Source: a virus
Length of the DNA: 27,317 nt
IMG/VR virus record: IMGVR_UViG_3300044971_000257
Location: 1-27,317 of that record
Direction: 5' to 3' (one strand)
Under the pieces are notes generated by a model. The model ran no database searches, was not told where the DNA came from, and was given only the letters and a program-made list of their open reading frames with translations. The position numbers and the translations under genes are program-made. Of this stretch, positions 8,985-18,636 are shown in pieces. Positions within the stretch are counted from its first letter, which is position 1, and every line of letters starts with the position of its first letter.

Positions 8985-9599
8985 ATGAATTTAGGCAAAT
9001 TTGATTGTGCAACAGGACTAATAAATGTTTTGTATCAAAAAGATGACTTAGTTGTAAGAAATGCCCGCGAAATTGACATTATGTTTATTGATAAATTACA
9101 AAAAGATAATTCTTATGCTGTTGGATTTATTCAAAAAACCGTATGGGATAAGTATGTTTTTGGCGGAGAAAGAAATTTTGTTGTATTTATTTGCGAGAAG
9201 AACAATGACCCTGTTGGGTACATTCTCTTAACACCAGGCAAAGGCCACCACACTTACACGCGTATTCAGCAAATCGCAGTCAGAGATGACGCAAGACGAT
9301 TAGATTACGGTTCTGCGCTTATAGCCGTTGTAAAAGATTTTTGCCAAACATTTCAAAGAACAGGTACACGCTTGAGATGCCGTACAGATTTAGAGTCTAA
9401 TAGTTTTTGGAAAGCATTAGGTTTTAACAAATACGGTGTGTGGCAAAAGGGTATGATTAACCATGTAGGCTTTAAGGCTTCAGCCGACATAAACTTATGG
9501 CAAATAGATTTGAATGATAATTTATTAACGCTTTTTCCTTCAGAAGAAGAAGAATTATGGATACCGTCTGCTACCAGTAGTAACCTTAAAGCCAGGTAA
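8985..9599 (+). CDS. GNAT-family N-acetyltransferase
   Basis: A 204-residue protein whose ATG follows GGGGGG. The GNAT acetyl-CoA-binding motif is IQQIAVRDDARRLDYGSALI: a strand, then the R/D-x-R/G-x-G-S/A-L loop that grips pyrophosphate. Beta strands before it (FVVFICEK and VGYILL) and the later ESNSFWKALGF motif complete the fold. GNAT enzymes move an acetyl group to amines of small molecules or proteins. The acceptor is unknown. It sits alone between a terminator-like hairpin and the small terminase, a common place for accessory genes, and may modify a host protein or the phage's own head. The C-terminal 40 residues are unusual for the family (DINLWQIDLNDN and an acidic tail). Confidence 0.75.
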   Translation: MNLGKFDCATGLINVLYQKDDLVVRNAREIDIMFIDKLQKDNSYAVGFIQKTVWDKYVFGGERNFVVFICEKNNDPVGYILLTPGKGHHTYTRIQQIAVRDDARRLDYGSALIAVVKDFCQTFQRTGTRLRCRTDLESNSFWKALGFNKYGVWQKGMINHVGFKASADINLWQIDLNDNLLTLFPSEEEELWIPSATSSNLKAR

Positions 9600-9643: not shown

Positions 9644-10141
9644 ATGGTAGAAAATACGCGTAATTTAGTAGAAAAAGAAACAACCATAATTGAGTTGCGC
9701 CATGAAGGTTATGTGTGGCGTGAGATTGCAGTTATGGTGGACATGAGCATTGCAGGCGTTGTGAAGGCTTACAAGCGCGCTCTTACGCGTCACCCTGTTG
9801 CGGCAATAGAAGAACACCGTGAACTGGAATTAGATCGCCTGGATAATCTTCAGCGTACCTACTGGCAACCTGCGGTGGCTGGCAATCTAAGAGCGGCAGA
9901 TTTTGTTTTACGCGTAATTGATAAGCGCGCAAAGTTACTGGGATTAGATGCACCATTGAAGGTACAAGCAGAGGTGGTTACTTATGACGGATCAGACCTG
10001 GACAGAGAAGTTGAACGAGTCGCAAGAATTATTGAAGCCTCAACAGTTGGAGGGGTTGCAACCATCACAGAACTCACGGATCAAGGCGAGCCGTTGGGTA
10101 TGGAAGAACAAACTGGCGCGGAAGGAACAACTACCGCCTGA
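9644..10141 (+). CDS. terS: Probable terminase small subunit
   Basis: The 165-residue product has an N-terminal helix-turn-helix (IIELRHEGYVWREIAVMV, then SIAGVVKAYKRAL), and a helical oligomerisation segment (LDRLDNLQRTYWQPAVAG, then FVLRVIDKRAKLLGLDAP), both standard for TerS. TerS recognises the packaging site and recruits the large subunit. A TAA in frame at 9629 makes ATG 9644 the first possible start, although no Shine-Dalgarno site is evident. The C-terminal 50 residues (from about residue 114) are encoded in the same bases as the start of the large terminase, a 158-base overlap in another frame. Confidence 0.75.
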   Translation: MVENTRNLVEKETTIIELRHEGYVWREIAVMVDMSIAGVVKAYKRALTRHPVAAIEEHRELELDRLDNLQRTYWQPAVAGNLRAADFVLRVIDKRAKLLGLDAPLKVQAEVVTYDGSDLDREVERVARIIEASTVGGVATITELTDQGEPLGMEEQTGAEGTTTA

Positions 10142-11405
10142 AGGTGACTGGAACATTTGGCTTGCAATGGCAGGCCGTGGATTTGGCAAAACAAGATTAG
10201 GCGCTGAAGAAATAGCCTGGCAAGCAATCGTTCAACCCGCTACCAGGTGGGCTGTTGTTGCCCCTACATTCTCAGATGCTAGAGATACATGTGCAGAGGG
10301 TGAGTCAGGCATTGTTGCCGTCTTACAGCGTTATCAAATGCTTCAGAATTACAACCGTTCTATTGGTGAGATCTTGCTTAAGAACGGTAGCCGCATAAAA
10401 CTGTTTAGCGCAGATAACCCTGAACGCTTTAGAGGCCCACAACATCATGGCGCTTGGTGTGATGAGTTAGGTGCATGGCGTTATCAAGATGCCTGGGATC
10501 AATTGCAGTTTGGCCTACGCCTGGGAAAAAAACCGCGTGTAATTGTTACTACTACGCCGCGTTCTACCGCTCTCATACGCATGCTTGCAGGCCGTACAGA
10601 TGGCTCAGTAGTAATTACCAGGGGAAGCACATTTGATAACGCTAAGAACCTAGCCCCTAGCGCATTGATGGAGTTGCAAGCGCGTTACAACGGTACGCGT
10701 TTAGGCCGCCAGGAACTTTATGGAGAAATCCTTGATGATGTTGAAGGAGCATTGTGGACTAGAGGTTTAATTGACCGCACACGCATTGCAACAGCCCCAA
10801 CTATGGCCCGCATTGTTGTAAGCGTTGATCCTGCCGTAACTAACTCAGAGAAGTCAGATGAAACAGGAATTGTTGTTGTTGGATCTACCTCAGATGGCCA
10901 GGGCTATGTGCTTGGTGATTACTCATTTAGAGGTTCACCGTTGCAGTGGGCTACAAAGGCAGTAGAACTATTTGACGCATACAAGGCTGATGCTGTTTTG
11001 GTGGAAGTAAACCAGGGCGGTGACATGGTGGGCGCAGTGTTGAAGCAAGTACGGCCTACCTTGCCAATTAGAGAAGTGCGAGCGCATGTGGGTAAAAAAC
11101 TACGCGCTGAACCAGTAGCGGCTATGTATGAGCAGGGGCGTATTCACCACATTGGAGAATTTGCAGAGTTAGAAGATCAAATGTGTACCTGGACTGTTGA
11201 TGAACCTAATTCACCTGACCGCATTGATGCAATGGTGCAGGGTTTTAGCGATTTGTTAGGAAAGGTTACGGTTAGTAATTACTTTAACGCTATTGCTAAT
11301 CATTGCCCTAAGTGTGGCTTGCCTATGCCTAAATCATTTACACATTGTTCTGCGTGTAGAACCGCTATGATTGTGACAAATTCTGAGGTGGCACAAGGAG
11401 CGTAA
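9984..11405 (+). CDS. terL: Terminase large subunit with C-terminal zinc ribbon
   Basis: A 473-residue packaging motor. ATPase: Walker A AGRGFGKT (63-70), preceded by the typical QLPPEGDWNIWL, and Walker B with D160-E161 in AWCDELGAW; TTTPR follows as a coupling motif. Nuclease: D282 in VSVDPAVTN, E341 in LVEVNQGG, and D412/D415 in PDRIDAM form the RNase-H-like active site that cuts concatemers. The ATG at 9984 has AGAGG nearby and gives the usual amount of sequence before Walker A, so the 158-base overlap with terS is probably real. At the C-terminus four Cys (C441, C444, C455, C458) make a CxxC-x10-CxxC zinc ribbon that is not part of the minimal terminase; it may hold portal or DNA. Confidence 0.95.
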   Translation: MTDQTWTEKLNESQELLKPQQLEGLQPSQNSRIKASRWVWKNKLARKEQLPPEGDWNIWLAMAGRGFGKTRLGAEEIAWQAIVQPATRWAVVAPTFSDARDTCAEGESGIVAVLQRYQMLQNYNRSIGEILLKNGSRIKLFSADNPERFRGPQHHGAWCDELGAWRYQDAWDQLQFGLRLGKKPRVIVTTTPRSTALIRMLAGRTDGSVVITRGSTFDNAKNLAPSALMELQARYNGTRLGRQELYGEILDDVEGALWTRGLIDRTRIATAPTMARIVVSVDPAVTNSEKSDETGIVVVGSTSDGQGYVLGDYSFRGSPLQWATKAVELFDAYKADAVLVEVNQGGDMVGAVLKQVRPTLPIREVRAHVGKKLRAEPVAAMYEQGRIHHIGEFAELEDQMCTWTVDEPNSPDRIDAMVQGFSDLLGKVTVSNYFNAIANHCPKCGLPMPKSFTHCSACRTAMIVTNSEVAQGA

Positions 11406-11950
11406 TGGCTGACAATTACAACACAATAATTGATCAAGGCGCTGACTGGTTTCGCAATTTCTTGTACACACAACCTGCAACGATTACAAACGCAGTAGGC
11501 AATGGCACAACTGTTACATACACCGCAGAAAACGGATTTAGTGCAGGGCAAACTGTTTACATTGAAGGCATCATGCCTAGCCAATACAACTTAGGTAATG
11601 TAACGATTGCTTCACGCACCTCAACACAATTTACTGTTACAAACGCGGCTACTGGTTTATACATTCAAGGTGGAGATGCACTAAGCGCAGTGGACATTAC
11701 TGGCTACACAGCCCGTATGCAGTTGCGCTCGCTACCTAATGACACCGTTGCAGTTTTAACGCTTACAGAAACAAGCGGCATTACAATTGATGGGCCTAGT
11801 GGAACTCTTGCAGTTCGCGCAACAGCGGCACAAACGGCGGCAATAATTGCAGGCCCTTACTATTATGATTTAGAGATAACATCACCTACTGGTGTGAAAA
11901 CACGACTTGTTCAGGGTGAATTAAATGTAAACGCAGAGGTGACAAGATGA
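11405..11950 (+). CDS. BppU-like structural adaptor with inserted beta domain
   Basis: A 181-residue protein starting in a TAATG junction after terL. Residues 1-22 (IIDQGADWFRNFLY) and 92-181 (DALSAVDITGYTARMQLRS; SGTLAVRATAAQTAAI; YYYDLEITSPTG) together match a fold seen in phage adaptors like the N-terminal domain of the baseplate protein BppU, which tethers receptor-binding proteins. Between them, residues 23-91 look like an inserted beta sandwich (TVTYTAENGFSAGQTVYIEG, and VTIASRTSTQFTVTNAATG), a module repeatedly found pasted into phage structural proteins. Its place just before the collagen-like fibre and overlapping it by four bases suggests it anchors that fibre. Because it lies between terminase and portal, attachment to the head is as likely as to the tail. 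Confidence 0.55.
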   Translation: MADNYNTIIDQGADWFRNFLYTQPATITNAVGNGTTVTYTAENGFSAGQTVYIEGIMPSQYNLGNVTIASRTSTQFTVTNAATGLYIQGGDALSAVDITGYTARMQLRSLPNDTVAVLTLTETSGITIDGPSGTLAVRATAAQTAAIIAGPYYYDLEITSPTGVKTRLVQGELNVNAEVTR

Positions 11951-14493
11951 CATACAACCCAAATAACTTTTTGAATAATCCAAACCCTGTTGGAACTCCA
12001 AATGTCATTGTTGTTACACCTGGCCCTATGGGGCAACAAGGCGCACAAGGTATTCAAGGCATTGCAGGTAACTTCTCTGCTCAAGGTACGCAAGGTACAC
12101 AAGGTTTACAAGGTGGCGGATTTAATCAGGCACAAGGAACACAGGGTTTACAAGGCCCACAAGGATTAACTGGTGTTCAAGGTACAAATGGTTTGCAAGG
12201 TGTACAGGGCGCACAAGGCACAACAGGTATTCAAGGCCAAACTGGTATTCAAGGCGCATTTGGTGTTCAAGGAACTAACGGAACACAAGGCACATCAGGA
12301 GCGCAGGGAGTTGAAGGCGTACAGGGTGCAACAGGTACACAGGGTTTAGTTGGCGTACAAGGAACTAATGGTGCGCAAGGTATTACGGGTACACAAGGAG
12401 CAACTGGTACACAGGGCTTGCTTGGTATTCAAGGTTCTATTGGTGCGCAAGGCATAACTGGCACAAACGGAACTCAGGGCGCGACAGGTACACAAGGCGT
12501 AACAGGAATTCAAGGCACACAGGGAACGCAGGGTGTGCAGGGCTTACTTGGTAATGTTGGAAATACTGGAACACAGGGAACAACAGGATCTCAGGGTTTA
12601 ACTGGATCTCAAGGCGCTATTGGCGATACTGGTTCACAGGGAACGCAGGGTGTTCAAGGTATTACTGGCGTACAAGGTTTAACTGGTGCGCAAGGAACAC
12701 AAGGAATTCAGGGCCATGACGGAACACAAGGATTAACTGGTGTTCAAGGAACTACGGGCGCACAAGGAACGATAGGCGCTCAAGGAACTGATGGAATACA
12801 AGGTTTAACAGGTATTCAAGGATCAACAGGTGCGCAGGGTTTAACTGGCTTACAAGGCACAACAGGTTCTCAAGGACTTGATGGAATTCAGGGAACTGTT
12901 GGAGCGCAAGGAACTCAAGGCGTACAGGGAATTACTGGTAGCCAAGGTGTTCAGGGCTTAAATGGTATTCAAGGTGTGCAAGGCCTTACTGGTGCAAGCG
13001 GTACATCATCATCTATTTTTGAGTATCAAGCAGACACTACAACTCAAACACCTGTACCTGCCGCTGGCAGAATTATTTGGAATAATGCCACACAAATTTC
13101 TTCAACAAACATTTACATTTCTCATTTAACAGATTTCAATGTGGACATTGATTTTCTATTAGCAAACATTAAAGATAATGACATTTTCTTTATTCAAGAT
13201 AGAACTGACTCTAACAATTATCAAGAGTGGGAAGTAAACGGCACACCTTCATCTGTTACTAACAGTTATTTCACTTTTCCTGTAACGCTTTTAGCATCAG
13301 GTGGAACAGGCACAACAAACTTTGCTAATAATCACAACCTTTCTCTCATTACTCAAAGCGTTGGTGTTCAAGGAGTTACAGGTGCGCAGGGTACAACAGG
13401 TGCGCAGGGAACTCAGGGCTTACAAGGTGTTCAGGGAACTGAAGGCTTACAAGGTACAACTGGAACTCAAGGACTTGTTGGCGCGCAGGGTCAGACTGGC
13501 GCACAAGGCATTGAAGGCTTGCAGGGTACTCAAGGAGTGCAGGGCGTAACTGGTTCTCAAGGACAAACTGGATCACAAGGTTTAGATGGTATTCAGGGAA
13601 CTACTGGCGCTCAAGGCTTAGAGGGAATTCAAGGCCATGAAGGAACTCAGGGTACGACTGGTGCGCAGGGCTTAGAAGGTTTGCAAGGAACTCAGGGAAC
13701 TCAGGGTATTCAGGGTGTAACTGGTAGCCAGGGAACAACTGGAACACAAGGCACACAAGGAACTCAAGGACTTGAGGGATTGCAAGGTGTTACAGGATCT
13801 CAAGGTACTGACGGCGTTAATGGTGTTCAAGGAACAACAGGTACTCAAGGTACAACTGGTACTCAGGGCATTGAAGGACTGCAAGGAATAACTGGTACGC
13901 AAGGTACTCAGGGGCTTGAGGGAATTCAGGGAACAACTGGATCACAAGGTACTGAGGGAATTCAAGGCATCACTGGTACTCAAGGCTTAACTGGATCTCA
14001 GGGAACTACGGGCGCAGAGGGTATTCAAGGCGTTCAAGGTACTAATGGAATTCAGGGCGCTACTGGAACTCAGGGAACAACAGGTAGCCAGGGAACTCAG
14101 GGTACTCAGGGAGTTCAAGGCACAACTGGACTTCAGGGATTAACTGGAACACAAGGTTTGCAAGGAACTTTGGGTACACAGGGAACTACTGGAACGCTTC
14201 CAACCGTTACATTTAACGCGCAAACAATTGCTTACACATTGGTTGCAGGAGATGTAAACAAATGGGTTACGCAGAGCGGTACTGCAAACATTACTGTTCC
14301 CGCTGGAACATTTAGCACTGGACAAGTTATTTATGTACAGCGCATTGGTGCAGGTGCGGTTTCTATCGTGGCAAGCGGTGTGACATTTACATCAAATGGA
14401 TCTGCAAGCCCAGTGTTACGCGCTCAATACAGTTCTGCATCAATCCTTTGTACTGGATCTAACACCTTTACAATTGTTGGAGACATTTCCTAA
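11947..14493 (+). CDS. Collagen-like fibre protein
   Basis: An 848-residue protein. After a 25-residue leader come two long Gly-X-Y regions, about residues 26-352 and 472-751, made of triplets such as GTQ, GLQ, GVQ and GTT. They contain almost no Pro; Gln and Thr fill the Y position. Between them is a globular domain (about 353-471; SIFEYQADTTTQTPVPAAGRI onward), and a C-terminal beta-rich domain (about 752-848; ITVPAGTFSTGQVIYVQRIGAG onward) that may be a trimerisation or receptor-binding knob. Such proteins form trimeric flexible fibres. Bacterial and viral collagen-like stalks with Thr-rich triplets can be heavily glycosylated (for example BclA of Bacillus). It overlaps the preceding adaptor gene (ATGA) and its stop overlaps that of the convergent methyltransferase gene. 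Confidence 0.85.
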   Translation: MTYNPNNFLNNPNPVGTPNVIVVTPGPMGQQGAQGIQGIAGNFSAQGTQGTQGLQGGGFNQAQGTQGLQGPQGLTGVQGTNGLQGVQGAQGTTGIQGQTGIQGAFGVQGTNGTQGTSGAQGVEGVQGATGTQGLVGVQGTNGAQGITGTQGATGTQGLLGIQGSIGAQGITGTNGTQGATGTQGVTGIQGTQGTQGVQGLLGNVGNTGTQGTTGSQGLTGSQGAIGDTGSQGTQGVQGITGVQGLTGAQGTQGIQGHDGTQGLTGVQGTTGAQGTIGAQGTDGIQGLTGIQGSTGAQGLTGLQGTTGSQGLDGIQGTVGAQGTQGVQGITGSQGVQGLNGIQGVQGLTGASGTSSSIFEYQADTTTQTPVPAAGRIIWNNATQISSTNIYISHLTDFNVDIDFLLANIKDNDIFFIQDRTDSNNYQEWEVNGTPSSVTNSYFTFPVTLLASGGTGTTNFANNHNLSLITQSVGVQGVTGAQGTTGAQGTQGLQGVQGTEGLQGTTGTQGLVGAQGQTGAQGIEGLQGTQGVQGVTGSQGQTGSQGLDGIQGTTGAQGLEGIQGHEGTQGTTGAQGLEGLQGTQGTQGIQGVTGSQGTTGTQGTQGTQGLEGLQGVTGSQGTDGVNGVQGTTGTQGTTGTQGIEGLQGITGTQGTQGLEGIQGTTGSQGTEGIQGITGTQGLTGSQGTTGAEGIQGVQGTNGIQGATGTQGTTGSQGTQGTQGVQGTTGLQGLTGTQGLQGTLGTQGTTGTLPTVTFNAQTIAYTLVAGDVNKWVTQSGTANITVPAGTFSTGQVIYVQRIGAGAVSIVASGVTFTSNGSASPVLRAQYSSASILCTGSNTFTIVGDIS
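12022..13002 (+). repeat. Gly-X-Gln/Thr coding repeat, first block
   Basis: About 109 tandem 9-base units of the pattern GGN-NNN-CAA/CAG/ACN encode the first collagen-like region. Codon choice varies between neighbours (GGA, GGT, GGC; CAA, CAG), so the protein is repetitive while the DNA is only approximately so. This limits slippage but could still allow length change by recombination. Confidence 0.8.
13360..14199 (+). repeat. Gly-X-Gln/Thr coding repeat, second block
   Basis: About 93 codon triplets of the same pattern encode the second collagen-like region. Near-identical phrases such as caaggaactcaaggt recur with varied wobble bases. The same repeat in both blocks offers a target for recombination that would delete the intervening globular domain. 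Confidence 0.8.
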
Positions 14494-15164
14494 CGAACCC
14501 ACAACATACCTACATCTGCGGTAGGGCGTAGGTTGGCTACTTTCCAACCGCCGTCTATCCACTCATCAGATGTAAGTTGATGCCAGGCATTTAGTTGATT
14601 GGTGTTATTAGATTGCATGTTGCCCCACACTTGCGGCTCTTGCAGATGGTTCACAATGTATTGCGCGGCCATCTCTCTGTAACCCAGGGTAAATAAATAA
14701 TCTAACTGATCCTCATGTTGGTGCATGGTTTCAAATGTCCACTCAAAACAAATCATGCCCCCGTAATGGCGTGTCATGCCTTTCATCACTTGCCACTCTG
14801 CACCTTCAACATCAATCTTGATTAGGTCAGGGTTGCCGTATGTATCTGCAAGGGTGTCAATGGTGATTGTGTTTACTTCTACCTCACGGTGAGGCTTGCC
14901 TTTGTATGGCATGCCATCTTTGGTTAGCCACTCTTGGTTAAGCGAACTTAGGCCATCTTCATCTGCCTCATAAAACTTTAAGCGTTCGCCATCTTTGTCA
15001 CTGACTGCCATTCTAAGAGGCACAACATTGGGGTTGTAGATGAAGTTACCAACTAACTCTGAAAACACGCGTGGAGCGGCTTCTAAGGCTATTACGCGGT
15101 ATCCTTGTTTTAATCCTGCAAGCGTTGCATCACCGCGATTAGCACCAACATCAAATAGAAGCAT
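14490..15164 (-). CDS. FkbM-family methyltransferase
   Basis: A 224-residue SAM-dependent enzyme. Motif I is FDVGANRGD (4-12), the acidic residue binding the ribose is E28 in ALEAAP, and DLIKIDVEGAEW (113-124) is the diagnostic FkbM block. These enzymes usually methylate a hydroxyl of a sugar or polyketide. The start ATG follows AAAGGAT by six bases and overlaps the TPR gene by 14 bases. The C-terminal part (WTFETMHQHEDQLDYLF onward) is complete for the family. Stop codons of this gene and of the fibre gene overlap, tail to tail. Encoding sugar methylation next to a Thr/Gln-rich fibre suggests modification of a glycan, either on the fibre or on the host surface. Confidence 0.88.
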   Translation of the reverse strand: MLLFDVGANRGDATLAGLKQGYRVIALEAAPRVFSELVGNFIYNPNVVPLRMAVSDKDGERLKFYEADEDGLSSLNQEWLTKDGMPYKGKPHREVEVNTITIDTLADTYGNPDLIKIDVEGAEWQVMKGMTRHYGGMICFEWTFETMHQHEDQLDYLFTLGYREMAAQYIVNHLQEPQVWGNMQSNNTNQLNAWHQLTSDEWIDGGWKVANLRPTADVGMLWVR

Positions 15165-15714
15165 TGCCTATCCTTTCAAGATTATGTTGCACAGCGGACT
15201 TGTATCCTGGGTCAATGTCCATTGCGTTTAAGCGACCTAGTATTTGGATACTTTCATCTTTACGCCCTATCCACCAAGCGGCTACTGCTTTTTCAAACAG
15301 CAATACATACTGCCCTTCATAACCAACATGGACAGGAAGCGGTGAATTAAGTTGATTATGCAATCCAATGTTTGCCCAGGTGTAGCACTCTTGCCATTGC
15401 CCTAAACGCTCATGAAACTGCGCCAAAAGGAAATAACCTTCAGGGCGGTATGGCAAATAAGCAACAGCCTGCAATAAACAATTGCTCACAGTGGCATTAC
15501 GGTCATTTTGGTCATCAAAGCAATGGGCCGCTTTAAGAAGTGACGCATAAACTAAGGTTGGGTGTGTCTCATGGCCGTACTCTGCGGTGCGCAAATAGAA
15601 AGAAACGGCTGATGCTGTTTGGTTTTGCTTCTCGTACTCCACTGCCACATCAAAATTAAGCGCTGGATTAAATGGATCTTTAGATAGTTCTACGACTAAC
15701 TGCTCAATTTTCAT
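15151..15714 (-). CDS. TPR-like helical repeat protein
   Basis: A 187-residue protein from the ATG at 15714, which has GGAGG nine bases upstream (a TTG two codons earlier is nearer to that site but less usual). Paired helices of tetratricopeptide type can be read: NPALNFDVAVEYEKQNQTAS, then SFYLRTAEYG; EGYFLLAQFHERLGQWQECY, with TWANIGLHN; and FEKAVAAWWIGRKDESIQIL. These fit about three to four TPR units. TPR repeats often accompany sugar-transferring or sugar-modifying enzymes, holding the protein substrate. The gene overlaps both neighbours by 11-14 bases, so the three minus-strand genes form one operon. Confidence 0.7.
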   Translation of the reverse strand: MKIEQLVVELSKDPFNPALNFDVAVEYEKQNQTASAVSFYLRTAEYGHETHPTLVYASLLKAAHCFDDQNDRNATVSNCLLQAVAYLPYRPEGYFLLAQFHERLGQWQECYTWANIGLHNQLNSPLPVHVGYEGQYVLLFEKAVAAWWIGRKDESIQILGRLNAMDIDPGYKSAVQHNLERIGNASI

Positions 15715-16705
15715 ACGCAAGTGCCTCCATAATTAAATCCTCTACTACTGCCCCAGGTACTTGCAAGACAAATGCGGCGTTATCCTGGAAGCCAAATGAC
15801 ACCAAAAGGTTGCCGTTATGGACTGCCGCACCTACACAGAACTCAACGCGAGCATCTAAGAACGAGAATTCCTTACTTAGCCCTACAACATTGAGTTCCT
15901 GATCCCACACAACCAAGCGGTGACGGTAAATGGCATCTTTTTGCTTGAGGTAATTCTTAAATAGATCTACCTCATGGGTAATGGAGATGTACATGTTGCC
16001 CCACCGTATGACCTGGCTAGATCCGCGTTGATCCTTAGGCGCTGATGCTGTTGGCTTAACAAATACCTGCTCACATTCACCACTAAGCGGACTGGCATAA
16101 ACTAATTCTGTTGGCATTGTCCATTTGATGAAGTGATAAGGCTTATCTAGGACAGGTATCCAATTCTTCTCACAGTAAGAAGTGTTAGGAGCAGGGGCTT
16201 TGATGCGCACACGCCTGACTTCTTTGACTGCCCAGTTATCCCAGTCAATCTCAATAAGGCTGTACTCCATGCGGCCTACGCCGTTGGTTGTGGTGTCACG
16301 GCGAACGCCTACTAAGTAATAATCATCTAACCACTGAACTACGCGGCAATCTTCTTCACCCACAAACTCCCAAATGGGTTCAACATCTAATTCAGATGTA
16401 TCCACTTTGGCGTGGTGAGTCATTTCAAGATTATCATTGAGGCGGCACAAGTAATTGACCGTAACTAAGCGGCGATCCTTCTCAGGGTGCAGGTATGACA
16501 GTGGCCCAAATCGGCTAGGAAACTTCTGCTCATTTTCTGCGTGGTACAGCGTGTAATTAACATGGCGTAAGTTCACAAGAATGTTGCCCTTGTCATCAAT
16601 AAAGATTGATGGGTTCATTAGCCCAGTGCCGCTAGTTAATCCGTGAGGGATTACCAGGGGCGCAAGTTTGCCACCGTGTTGAACTGCCTTCTCTACTAAG
16701 TTCAT
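15704..16705 (-). CDS. Five-bladed beta-propeller, GH43/GH130-like carbohydrate enzyme
   Basis: A 333-residue protein with the repeated strand pattern of a five-bladed propeller. Landmarks: GLMNPSIF (28-35), E118-D119-x-R121 in GEEDCRVVQW, EKNWIPV (179-185), RGSSQVIRWGNMYISITHEV (227-246), IYRHRLVVWD (259-268) and RVEFCVGAA with LLVSFGFQDNAA near the end. The order NPS, ED-R, EKNW, HR, EF is that of glycoside-phosphorylase and mannosyltransferase relatives of GH130 rather than classical GH43. It may transfer or remove a sugar. ATG 16705 follows TAAGGAT. It heads the minus-strand operon, so its promoter should be in the gap before the portal. Exact activity is not known. Confidence 0.6.
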   Translation of the reverse strand: MNLVEKAVQHGGKLAPLVIPHGLTSGTGLMNPSIFIDDKGNILVNLRHVNYTLYHAENEQKFPSRFGPLSYLHPEKDRRLVTVNYLCRLNDNLEMTHHAKVDTSELDVEPIWEFVGEEDCRVVQWLDDYYLVGVRRDTTTNGVGRMEYSLIEIDWDNWAVKEVRRVRIKAPAPNTSYCEKNWIPVLDKPYHFIKWTMPTELVYASPLSGECEQVFVKPTASAPKDQRGSSQVIRWGNMYISITHEVDLFKNYLKQKDAIYRHRLVVWDQELNVVGLSKEFSFLDARVEFCVGAAVHNGNLLVSFGFQDNAAFVLQVPGAVVEDLIMEALAYEN

Positions 16706-16788: not shown

Positions 16789-18636
16789 ATGGGTCTGCGT
16801 GACCGTATCGCAAGAGCATTAGCAACTCAAGACATTGAAAAAGGCCCTAACCTGCCTGCGGGTGCTACAACAATTGGCACTGACGCACTCATGGCATCAT
16901 CAGGTTTAGCAATGCAACAAACTTACGGCAACAATGTTGCTCTCCCACGCGCACCATTTAGTTCAACAGTTCCATTTGGCCCAGGAAATCCAATTATCCC
17001 TGGTGCGATTAACCCAATTAACCCTGCCACTGGCCGCCCTGAACCGCGCCGTTATGAGTACCAGGTTGCTCAGAACATCAACATTGTTCCAACGCGCTTA
17101 GTTCCATTTTCAACATTACGCGCCGCTGGTGACAGTATTGACATTCTGCGCCGTTGCATTGAAGTAACTAAATCAAAGATGAACGGTTTACAGTTTGACA
17201 TTGTTCTTGGTGCAGACGCATCAGAGAAGATTGCGGCAGAGTCAGGTGGCGATCATGTGCGCGCTATGGCTAAGGCCCGCGAAAAGTACACAGATGAAAT
17301 TAACCGCTTGCGTGAGTTTTGGGAAAACCCTGACAAGGCAAACGGATACACATGGAATGACTGGATCAACATTGCAATTGAGGACATTCTTGTAATTGAT
17401 GCACTTGCTATTTACCCACAACCAACAGTAGGCGGAGATCTTTACGGTTTCCAAATCCTTGATGGTTCAACAATCAAACCACTCATTGATGACCGCGGTA
17501 TGCGCCCAATGTCACCTAACGCCGCGTTCCAACAGATCCTTTACGGTTTTCCACGCTCAGAGTTTTCTGCAACAGAAGAAGATCCAAAGGCAGATGGTGA
17601 ATTTACATCTGATCAATTGGCTTACTTGGTTCGCAATCGCCGCTCAACAACCGTTTATGGATTTAGCCCAGTAGAGCGAGCGCTACCACTTGCTGACATT
17701 TACTTGCGCCGCCAACAATGGATCAGAGCAGAGTACACAGACGGTGTAATGCCTGAACTTATGTTTACAACTGATGAAGATTGGGGAACTAACCCTGATC
17801 TCTTGCTTGCTTATGAGCGTATTCTTAATGATGACCTTGCAGGACAGACAGAGCAACGCAAGCGCGCTCGCCTATTGCCAAAGGGCTTAACACCTGTTGT
17901 TAATGAAGGTTATGGCGAAAAGTTCAAGGACACACTTGATGATTATTTAGTTACTTCTATTTGCGGACACTTTGGCGTACAACCATCTGAAATTGGTTTC
18001 TCACCAAAGGGCGGATTAGGTGGAGCAGGCTATGCAGAAGGACAAGCAGAAAACGGTGAAGCGCTAGGCATTGGGCCTCTTGCTAACTGGATCTCTAAGC
18101 AACTTACAAATCTTTCTTACACATACTTAGGTATGCCGCGTGAACTTGAATTCAAATTGCTTACATCAGAGCGCAAAGACACAGAAGAAAATGCGCGTAA
18201 GAATGAGATTGAAGTGCGCTCAGGTGGTAAGTCAATCAACGAGCGCAGATCAGAACTTGGTTTGCCGTTGCTTGATACACCTCAAGCAGACATGCCAATT
18301 ATGGTTGCAGGTTCAAGCGTTCTTTTATTCTCACCTGATGGATTGATTGATGCGGCGGCGGCGGCAACAGCGCCAACACTAAGCGGCCCTGATGCAACAC
18401 CTGATGCGCCTACAACACCAAATCCTCTTGAACAAAAACCTTCAACAGAGGTACAGCCTGAAGAAGATGAAGTGACTGAAGTAAAAGCATTTATGAAATG
18501 GGCGGCTAAGGGTAAGCGCGCAAGATTATTTGAATTCAAATCACTTGATCCAATTGTGGGAGATGCGCTCAACCGTTGTGCTTTTGATGGTGATTTAGAT
18601 ACTGCGCGAGCGCTGGCTAAGGCTTATCTAACATGA
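16789..18636 (+). CDS. Portal protein
   Basis: A 615-residue portal. After a Pro-rich N-terminus, the sequence from about residue 90 (YEYQVAQNINIVP) is typical: RLVPFSTLRAAGDSIDILRRCI, a wing segment (YGFQILDGSTIKPLIDDRG), and the conserved VYGFSPVERALPLADIYLRRQQW with LTPVVNEGYGEKFKDTLDDY and GHFGVQPSEIGF. Twelve copies form the ring at the head vertex through which DNA passes and to which the tail joins. The last 100 residues are an Ala/Thr/Pro-rich linker followed by a helical tail (FMKWAAKGKRARLFEFK) not needed for the core. It overlaps the MuF gene by four bases. Confidence 0.92.
   Translation: MGLRDRIARALATQDIEKGPNLPAGATTIGTDALMASSGLAMQQTYGNNVALPRAPFSSTVPFGPGNPIIPGAINPINPATGRPEPRRYEYQVAQNINIVPTRLVPFSTLRAAGDSIDILRRCIEVTKSKMNGLQFDIVLGADASEKIAAESGGDHVRAMAKAREKYTDEINRLREFWENPDKANGYTWNDWINIAIEDILVIDALAIYPQPTVGGDLYGFQILDGSTIKPLIDDRGMRPMSPNAAFQQILYGFPRSEFSATEEDPKADGEFTSDQLAYLVRNRRSTTVYGFSPVERALPLADIYLRRQQWIRAEYTDGVMPELMFTTDEDWGTNPDLLLAYERILNDDLAGQTEQRKRARLLPKGLTPVVNEGYGEKFKDTLDDYLVTSICGHFGVQPSEIGFSPKGGLGGAGYAEGQAENGEALGIGPLANWISKQLTNLSYTYLGMPRELEFKLLTSERKDTEENARKNEIEVRSGGKSINERRSELGLPLLDTPQADMPIMVAGSSVLLFSPDGLIDAAAAATAPTLSGPDATPDAPTTPNPLEQKPSTEVQPEEDEVTEVKAFMKWAAKGKRARLFEFKSLDPIVGDALNRCAFDGDLDTARALAKAYLT

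Follow-up and report, generated by a model that had tools for sequence, protein, structure and literature searches.

A beta-propeller, TPR and FkbM gene cassette facing a collagen-like phage fibre as a candidate stalk-glycosylation module

The collagen stalk of BclA contains Thr, placed at the Y position after Pro, and is glycosylated with a methylated glycan. In O-GlcNAc transferase (OGT), a TPR superhelix presents the substrate. Glycosylated phage fibres have, to our knowledge, rarely been described. Among viruses, the available text of PMC4691112 describes mimivirus L230 as a collagen lysyl hydroxylase-glucosyltransferase that acts on viral collagen. Here we analyze a viral stretch of 27,317 nt (IMG/VR record IMGVR_UViG_3300044971_000257; the whole stretch is called the window below), in which the gene of a collagen-like fibre faces three minus-strand genes, encoding a beta-propeller, a TPR protein and an FkbM-type methyltransferase (the cassette). 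The whole block sits between the TerL and portal genes (Table 1). The cassette is probably a fibre-stalk glycosylation module, in which the propeller transfers a sugar, the TPR protein holds the stalk and FkbM methylates. As with mimivirus L230, a virus enzyme would glycosylate the virus's own collagen-like protein, and mimivirus glycans also include methylated sugars.

To set cassette-bearing phages against cassette-less ones of one shared backbone, relatives of the portal were collected, and collagen was counted as present when the terminase-portal interval held a run of at least 10 triplets. The 72 interval rows (36 + 36) were reduced to 32 + 36 by removing 4 second copies of contigs. A stalk was found in 32/32 distinct contigs with the propeller and in 0/36 without it. 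Many propeller-bearing loci came from the propeller query; among loci found by the portal query alone, the counts were 11/11 and 0/36. No collagen run of this length was present anywhere on the fetched loci of the 36 cassette-less contigs. Terminase abuts portal in 12 of them, is 1.1 kb away in one and 2.1-3.5 kb away in 23. In all eight loci of this last group that were read (L280, L288, L298, L319, L332, L337, L343, L349), the open reading frame (ORF) after the terminase and the small protein encodes a stub of 92-105 aa in place of the fibre, composed of an N-terminal part, a few Gly-X-X triplets and a small tip domain. The stub N-terminus resembles that of some cassette-bearing fibres (L045 closest by eye), and the stub is perhaps a natural stalk-less form of the fibre.

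The association extends to whole viral records, where Pfam collagen was detected on 29/36 propeller-bearing records and 3/50 random ones (Fisher p 4e-13, treating records as independent). The former correspond to 37 handles, two of them on one record (26 dereplicated loci and 11 hand-chosen); the latter, all >15 kb, were picked by an arbitrary 14-base word. Outside the window's backbone, a collagen gene lies near the propeller in 20/28 loci within 8 kb, 21/39 within 5 kb and 18/52 within 3 kb (75% dereplicated; L162 counted twice at 8 kb), against 3/80 background loci. For the background, 120 random loci were drawn, 80 of which served for the proximity counts and 50 of those for the whole-record test; because the random contigs were not matched for tail regions, these contrasts may be overstated. 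The original prediction had named wide occurrence of the three genes without a fibre neighbour as evidence against itself, and this applies in part: among 30 propellers flanked by 8 kb on each side (one locus twice), 8 have no collagen of at least 10 triplets in that span and the remainder have one. It had also called for a search for the cassette beside collagen-like genes in other actinophages. The cassette does recur in many viral contigs, so its arrangement is not a product of chance. Its orientation and spacing vary, the collagen gene being convergent with it, upstream on the same strand or downstream on the same strand.

Next, the stalks themselves were compared. The window fibre matches PF01391 with 302.9 bits, and its two Gly-X-Y segments comprise 190 triplets, with Gln at Y in 106, Thr at X in 64, GTQ as the commonest triplet (33/190) and a Lys fraction of 0.0. 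We defined linked stalks as those of collagen genes lying no more than 9 kb from a propeller representative, 31 in all; the rest of the 65 representatives had none there or too little sequence. Unlinked viral collagens were drawn by a Gly-codon pattern that left X and Y free; of 120 sampled loci, 22 were dropped for want of a usable run and 3 because their record held a propeller, leaving 95. In 31/31 linked stalks the Gln fraction at Y is 0.39-0.87 (median 0.62), with a median Thr fraction at X of 0.36 and Pro at or below 0.07 (rounded), whereas the unlinked medians are 0.12 for Gln at Y, 0.03 for Thr at X and 0.11 for Pro. A Gln-Y fraction of at least 0.3 is reached by 31/31 linked and 22/95 unlinked stalks. 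Thr at Y did not differ between linked and unlinked viral collagens (96 unlinked in that comparison). On composition, it is Gln at Y that stays constant in the linked stalks and not Thr, which ranges from nearly absent to dominant. The linked stalk of L201 has hardly any Thr while Gln at Y is high in all 31, which weakens Thr as the constant acceptor. Since no feature other than Gln at Y is high throughout the linked stalks, L201 included, Gly-Thr-Gln or Gly-X-Gln might be a sequon glycosylated in the triple helix by the propeller and TPR protein, possibly on the Gln side chain, with a virus-special linkage and enzyme class and swappable tailoring enzymes through which phages would vary the sugars coating their fibres; we regard this extension as improbable.

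A second backbone is provided by two named Synechococcus phages, DSL-LC02 and S-SCSM2R, the former a metagenome assembly according to the accessible part of PMC10611076, the latter with WH7803 as its recorded host. The collagen gene adjoins the propeller in DSL-LC02 and is 7.9 kb away in S-SCSM2R, and both collagens are of the Gly-X-Gln type (Gln-Y 0.43-0.83). A relative of the neighbouring DSL-LC02 fibre occurs in 430 records, from which six cassette-less ones were fetched. In four of the six, the 43-45 kb fetched contain no collagen run. The other two, the mutually similar S-CAM9 and S-PRM1, encode a Pro-rich collagen that has Thr at Y and a Gln-Y fraction of 0.02-0.07 (features at 27398-32890 and 33251-34416 in S-CAM9, L631, and at 29571-35045 in S-PRM1, L634). 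The Pro-rich collagen of S-CAM9 is followed by genes with a 2OG-Fe(II) oxygenase annotation, and these two phages perhaps carry a different collagen-modifying arrangement.

AlphaFold modeling of the window propeller (pLDDT 92, pTM 0.90) predicts the five-bladed beta-propeller that characterizes GH130, and the GH130-like propeller of the original prediction is borne out at the level of fold. The top PDB matches are GH130 mannoside phosphorylases, hydrolases and one mannoside synthase, led by a 1,2-beta-oligomannan phosphorylase (9gph_A, Z 23.9, rmsd 3.3, 273 residues aligned; VIA search). Leishmania GT108 proteins stand below the GH130 rows at Z 18.5 to 17.2 and include GDP-mannose-dependent mannosyltransferases such as MPT-2 (6q4z_A, Z 18.5); MPT-4 has Z 17.6, and GH43-type propellers rank next (Z ~18 and lower). 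Identity in the structural alignments to GH130/GT108 enzymes is 10-17%. Viral models of similar fold come from pithovirus, solivirus, satyrvirus and indivirus, some of them named fucosyltransferase, pyruvyl transferase or LicD.

In the GH130 enzyme Teth514_1788, mannose is bound by Asn28, Asp92 and Asp281, and in its subgroup a Glu precedes Asp92 (PMC4264767, as far as its text is available). An alignment of 63 divergent viral propellers has 47 invariant columns, among them three residues that may correspond to this set (Table 1) and the pair E118-D119. The matching rests on weak, local profile alignments of motifs and is not a side-chain superposition of active sites: the NP motif of family member L106 aligned with that of GH130 in a weak hmmsearch alignment, a family-member WE-GLED-R aligned weakly with GH130 WE-GlEDPR, and FGFQDNA aligned with the YGxAD motif in the C-terminal part only (hhalign probability 68%, E 4.7e-5). 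The D119-D308 spacing of 189 equals that of D92-D281 in Teth514_1788. At E <=0.1, 34/63 family members match the GH130 profile (best 4.8e-6). Global hhalign of the propeller family with GH130 gave no useful alignment, and phmmer and hmmsearch against PDB sequences returned no propeller relative, only one chance antibody match. With the modelled GH130/GT108 fold and the motif-matched sugar-site residues, the propeller itself is a likely transferase. The original prediction had required either the propeller or a host enzyme to supply this activity; a host transferase need not be invoked.

The TPR protein is the closest companion of the propeller. Among 65 propeller representatives under 75% identity, 64 of them testable, TPR is the next gene in 57/64, and in 63/64 it is found at most seven genes away on the same strand. 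The window protein scores 26.8 bits against the TPR_17 cut-off of 24.4, and its entirely helical model (pLDDT 95) matches the TPR of OGT (1w3b_B, query-normalised TM 0.78) as well as designed TPRs and kinesin light chain. Since TPR is a common fold, the OGT match fits a fibre-holding role without proving one. The window FkbM scores 64.3 bits against a PF05050 cut-off of 22.7. In the same-strand run after the propeller, methyltransferase-type matches occur in 45 of these representatives, DUF6445-type matches in 33 and radical SAM in 14; the methyltransferase count reflects BLAST matches to three query regions, including one from S-SCSM2R that Pfam left without a name. A Pfam scan of 20 cassette proteins from seven loci found GT17, GT2, GT25 or GT1-like domains in some. 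The propeller is also fused in single ORFs to TPR (L121, L156), FkbM (L125, L149), GT17 (L101, L190), DUF6445 (L099), which we take to be oxygenase-like, and radical SAM (L091, L135, L149). On these counts, the propeller and the TPR protein are the core of the cassette, and FkbM is one among several partners. In the lineage of L286 and L292, propeller, TPR and collagen lie between terminase and portal without FkbM, which makes methylation an optional tailoring step. Some fibre cassettes include radical SAM/SPASM domains joined in one protein with the propeller or TPR (L091, L135, L149; L002 12959-15112), a possible means of peptide or sugar modification. Some phages have two nearby propeller genes, one fused to TPR or FkbM (L125, L126, L156-L159, L162), hinting at two-sugar decorations.

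We hypothesize that the TPR protein would grip the stalk and present it to the propeller, the two forming a two-part transferase, and that the propeller would transfer a sugar to the Gly-X-Gln/Thr stalk, most likely beta-linked mannose with GDP-mannose or mannose-1-phosphate as the donor, after which FkbM could O-methylate the added sugar. Other phages may build different decorations with GT17, GT2, GT25, radical SAM or DUF6445 as partners. Beta-mannose follows from the fold alone, with the GT17 fusion as a hint, known GT17 enzymes acting on a beta-mannose acceptor. We infer in which direction the reaction runs (transfer over hydrolysis or phosphorolysis), which sugar is used, which residue accepts it and that it is methylated; the benefit would presumably be protease resistance, stalk stability or masking.

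The idea that the cassette decorates the fibre, already part of the original prediction, is well supported by the co-occurrence, in two backbones, and by the repeat signature; it changes in that FkbM is optional and that Gln at Y, rather than Thr, is constant. Several results weigh against decoration. The window propeller does not reach the Pfam cut-off of GH130 (PF04041, E 0.18, 11.1 bits against 26, residues 106-135). Collagen without the cassette is common: of 98 viral records sampled for their collagen, only 3 also have a propeller, which is divergent in two cases. The Gln-rich, Pro-poor unlinked stalks of L498, L506, L560 and L570 have no propeller or TPR on their 4-21 kb records, and the expectation of a propeller wherever a viral collagen is rich in Gln was only partly borne out. 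Outside the repeats, 26/31 linked collagens belong to one homology group, and some of the Gly-X-Gln signature could therefore stem from common descent. On the portal tree, from which 4 propeller rows with short portals were left out and in which second copies of contigs were kept, cassette and collagen change together in 3/3 forced changes (sign test p 0.25); with just three such co-changes, the Fisher values overstate independence. The last two points are what one would expect if cassette and Gly-X-Gln collagen had merely spread as one block, with no functional dependence between them. Against this, orientation and spacing differ between loci and the signature is common to all five homology groups of linked collagens, and we consider linked inheritance alone quite improbable.

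The lack of Pfam collagen on 7/36 propeller-bearing records, which are 24-64 kb long and may be fragments, likewise speaks against stalk decoration and would suit a cassette that remodels a host surface glycan, for receptor change or superinfection exclusion, and sits near the fibre since host-range genes are exchanged together. Such a setting has precedents in the portions available of two reports: in two Nanopelagicales phages, a variable island contains the genes for tail fibres and collagen-like proteins (PMC10202952), and glycan gene clusters of jumbo phages were interpreted as capsule modification (PMC7824862). An enzyme of host glycans would not be expected to track the composition of the stalk, as the Gln-Y contrast shows the cassette to do, nor to be missing where the fibre is a stub, which makes this explanation rather unlikely. 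The propeller could also act on beta-mannosides as a hydrolase or phosphorylase, for trimming or salvage, while FkbM and TPR do something separate. GH130 phosphorylases and hydrolases are among its best structural matches, and its E-D pair resembles GH130_NC, in which the Glu is proposed as the base; two phosphorylases also have this Glu, however (both points from the accessible text of PMC4264767). GT108 and mannoside-synthase relatives share the fold, and single-ORF fusions join the propeller to GT17, TPR, FkbM and other modules. We therefore hold a degradative role to be very unlikely and favour glycosylation of the fibre stalk.

Three IMG/VR scans for the propeller gave relatives in at least 588/599, at least 600/600 and at least 599/600 of the stretches listed, 80 of which were kept from each scan. 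A single scan of 84,980 species genomes (GTDB) gave 6 relatives. Two of these (L225, L228) have phage head or tail genes alongside, and in two others (L224, L226) one neighbour matches a PHROG family (of unknown function and helicase, respectively). Two proteins searched beside L227 had no PHROG match, and L229 was left out of this check. A bacterial origin of the family was rejected on the small number of GTDB relatives and the phage surroundings of L225 and L228. By these searches the family appears almost phage-only, a strong tendency rather than proof because the GTDB scan used just two patterns. In Actinomycetia phage DSL-LC01 (locus L230, 7397-8314), a propeller of 25% identity lies beside a methyltransferase and a TauD-type dioxygenase; a TPR match is absent from the whole record, and this propeller is a divergent branch.

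Returning to the window, the ORF coordinates agree with the predicted gene order and with three overlapping minus-strand genes opposite the fibre, and Pfam supports the collagen, FkbM and TPR assignments (Table 1). The collagen and FkbM gene ends have 4 bases in common, FkbM and TPR overlap by 14, and TPR and propeller by 11 or 17, depending on the TPR start; the overlaps within the cassette are real. The small protein preceding the fibre had been called an adaptor, a label not borne out by its matches, the best to a PHROG family of unknown function and a weaker one to tail-fibre assembly. Nor is the label of actinophage favoured by the best-ranked named terminase match, which comes from a Microcystis phage (51% identity over 81%). 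For the collagen, 153 of the 154 records of named phages among the matches listed are Gordonia phages, matched at the C-terminal end of the fibre. Beside the packaging genes, a GNAT acetyltransferase is encoded at 8985-9599 (PF00583 3e-9). The protein at 9644-10138 carries the PHROG label 'Rnase E' (1.4e-27), which may be wrong, since its position ahead of TerL suggests a small terminase.

Table 1. Features of the fibre and cassette block in the window.
Feature	Position	Strand	Basis
TerL	9984-11405	+	ORF calls
Small protein adjoining fibre, possibly fibre assembly/attachment	11405-11950	+	phrog_1084 (function unknown) 4.6e-23; phrog_3304 (L-shaped tail fibre assembly) 4.2e-7
Collagen-like fibre of 848 aa, candidate acceptor	11947-14493	+	PF01391 2.7e-92; PHROG tail-fibre families
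First Gly-X-Y stalk segment	12136-13008	+	residues 64-354
Second Gly-X-Y stalk segment	13363-14199	+	residues 473-751
FkbM-type methyltransferase, proposed sugar O-methylation, optional tailoring	14490-15164	-	PF05050 2e-17
TPR protein, constant propeller partner, proposed fibre-binding subunit	15151-15720 (187 aa from ATG 15714)	-	TPR_17 5.2e-6
Five-bladed beta-propeller, GH130/GT108 fold, proposed glycosyl (beta-mannosyl?) transferase	15704-16705	-	AlphaFold model, structure matches
Asp308 codon, proposed counterpart of GH130 Asp281 (Teth514_1788)/Asp344 (BF0772)	15782-15784	-	invariant
Asp119 codon (E-D-x-R motif), proposed catalytic Asp (Asp92 Teth514_1788; Asp131 BF0772)	16349-16351	-	invariant
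Asn31 codon, proposed counterpart of GH130 -1 mannose-binding Asn (Asn28, Teth514_1788)	16613-16615	-	invariant
Portal	16789-18636	+	ORF calls

If this proposal is right, a large unrecognised set of aquatic phages coats its collagen fibres with sugar by means of an enzyme nearly confined to viruses. Sugar could then be what stabilises or masks stalks that contain almost no Pro and so have no access to hydroxyproline, and collagen glycosylation would become testable in bacteria with two genes. Among the matches listed in our literature search, which mostly did not extend to subscription journals and preprints, no paper describes a GH130-like propeller, a TPR protein and FkbM together with phage collagen.

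Together, our results set the cassette beside several known systems. With the GH130/GT108 enzymes (Teth514_1788 and BfMGP; Leishmania MPT/MTP) the phage protein shares a full-length five-bladed propeller, and its Asn/Asp/Asp motifs may correspond to theirs, but it differs in its 10-17% identity, its sub-cut-off Pfam score, its almost phage-only distribution and its pairing with TPR and fibre genes. OGT (GT41) is similar in having a TPR superhelix beside a transferase, and its TPR is among the matches of our model; the catalytic part of the phage cassette is a propeller rather than GT-B and usually a separate protein, which places it outside GT41. Compared with BclA, Thr leads X, Gln leads Y and Pro is almost absent. 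Mimivirus L230 makes hydroxylysine and adds Glc, whereas the phage candidate is a GH130/GT108-type propeller with a TPR partner; the L230-type acceptor is Lys, of which the window stalk has virtually none, and the Pfam matches of the three cassette proteins include no hydroxylase or L230-type glucosyltransferase domain, so that the cassette is not of the L230 type. Virus-made glycosylation of viral collagen is known from mimivirus L230; in the phage cassette the enzyme, its partner, the stalk chemistry and the kind of virus differ.

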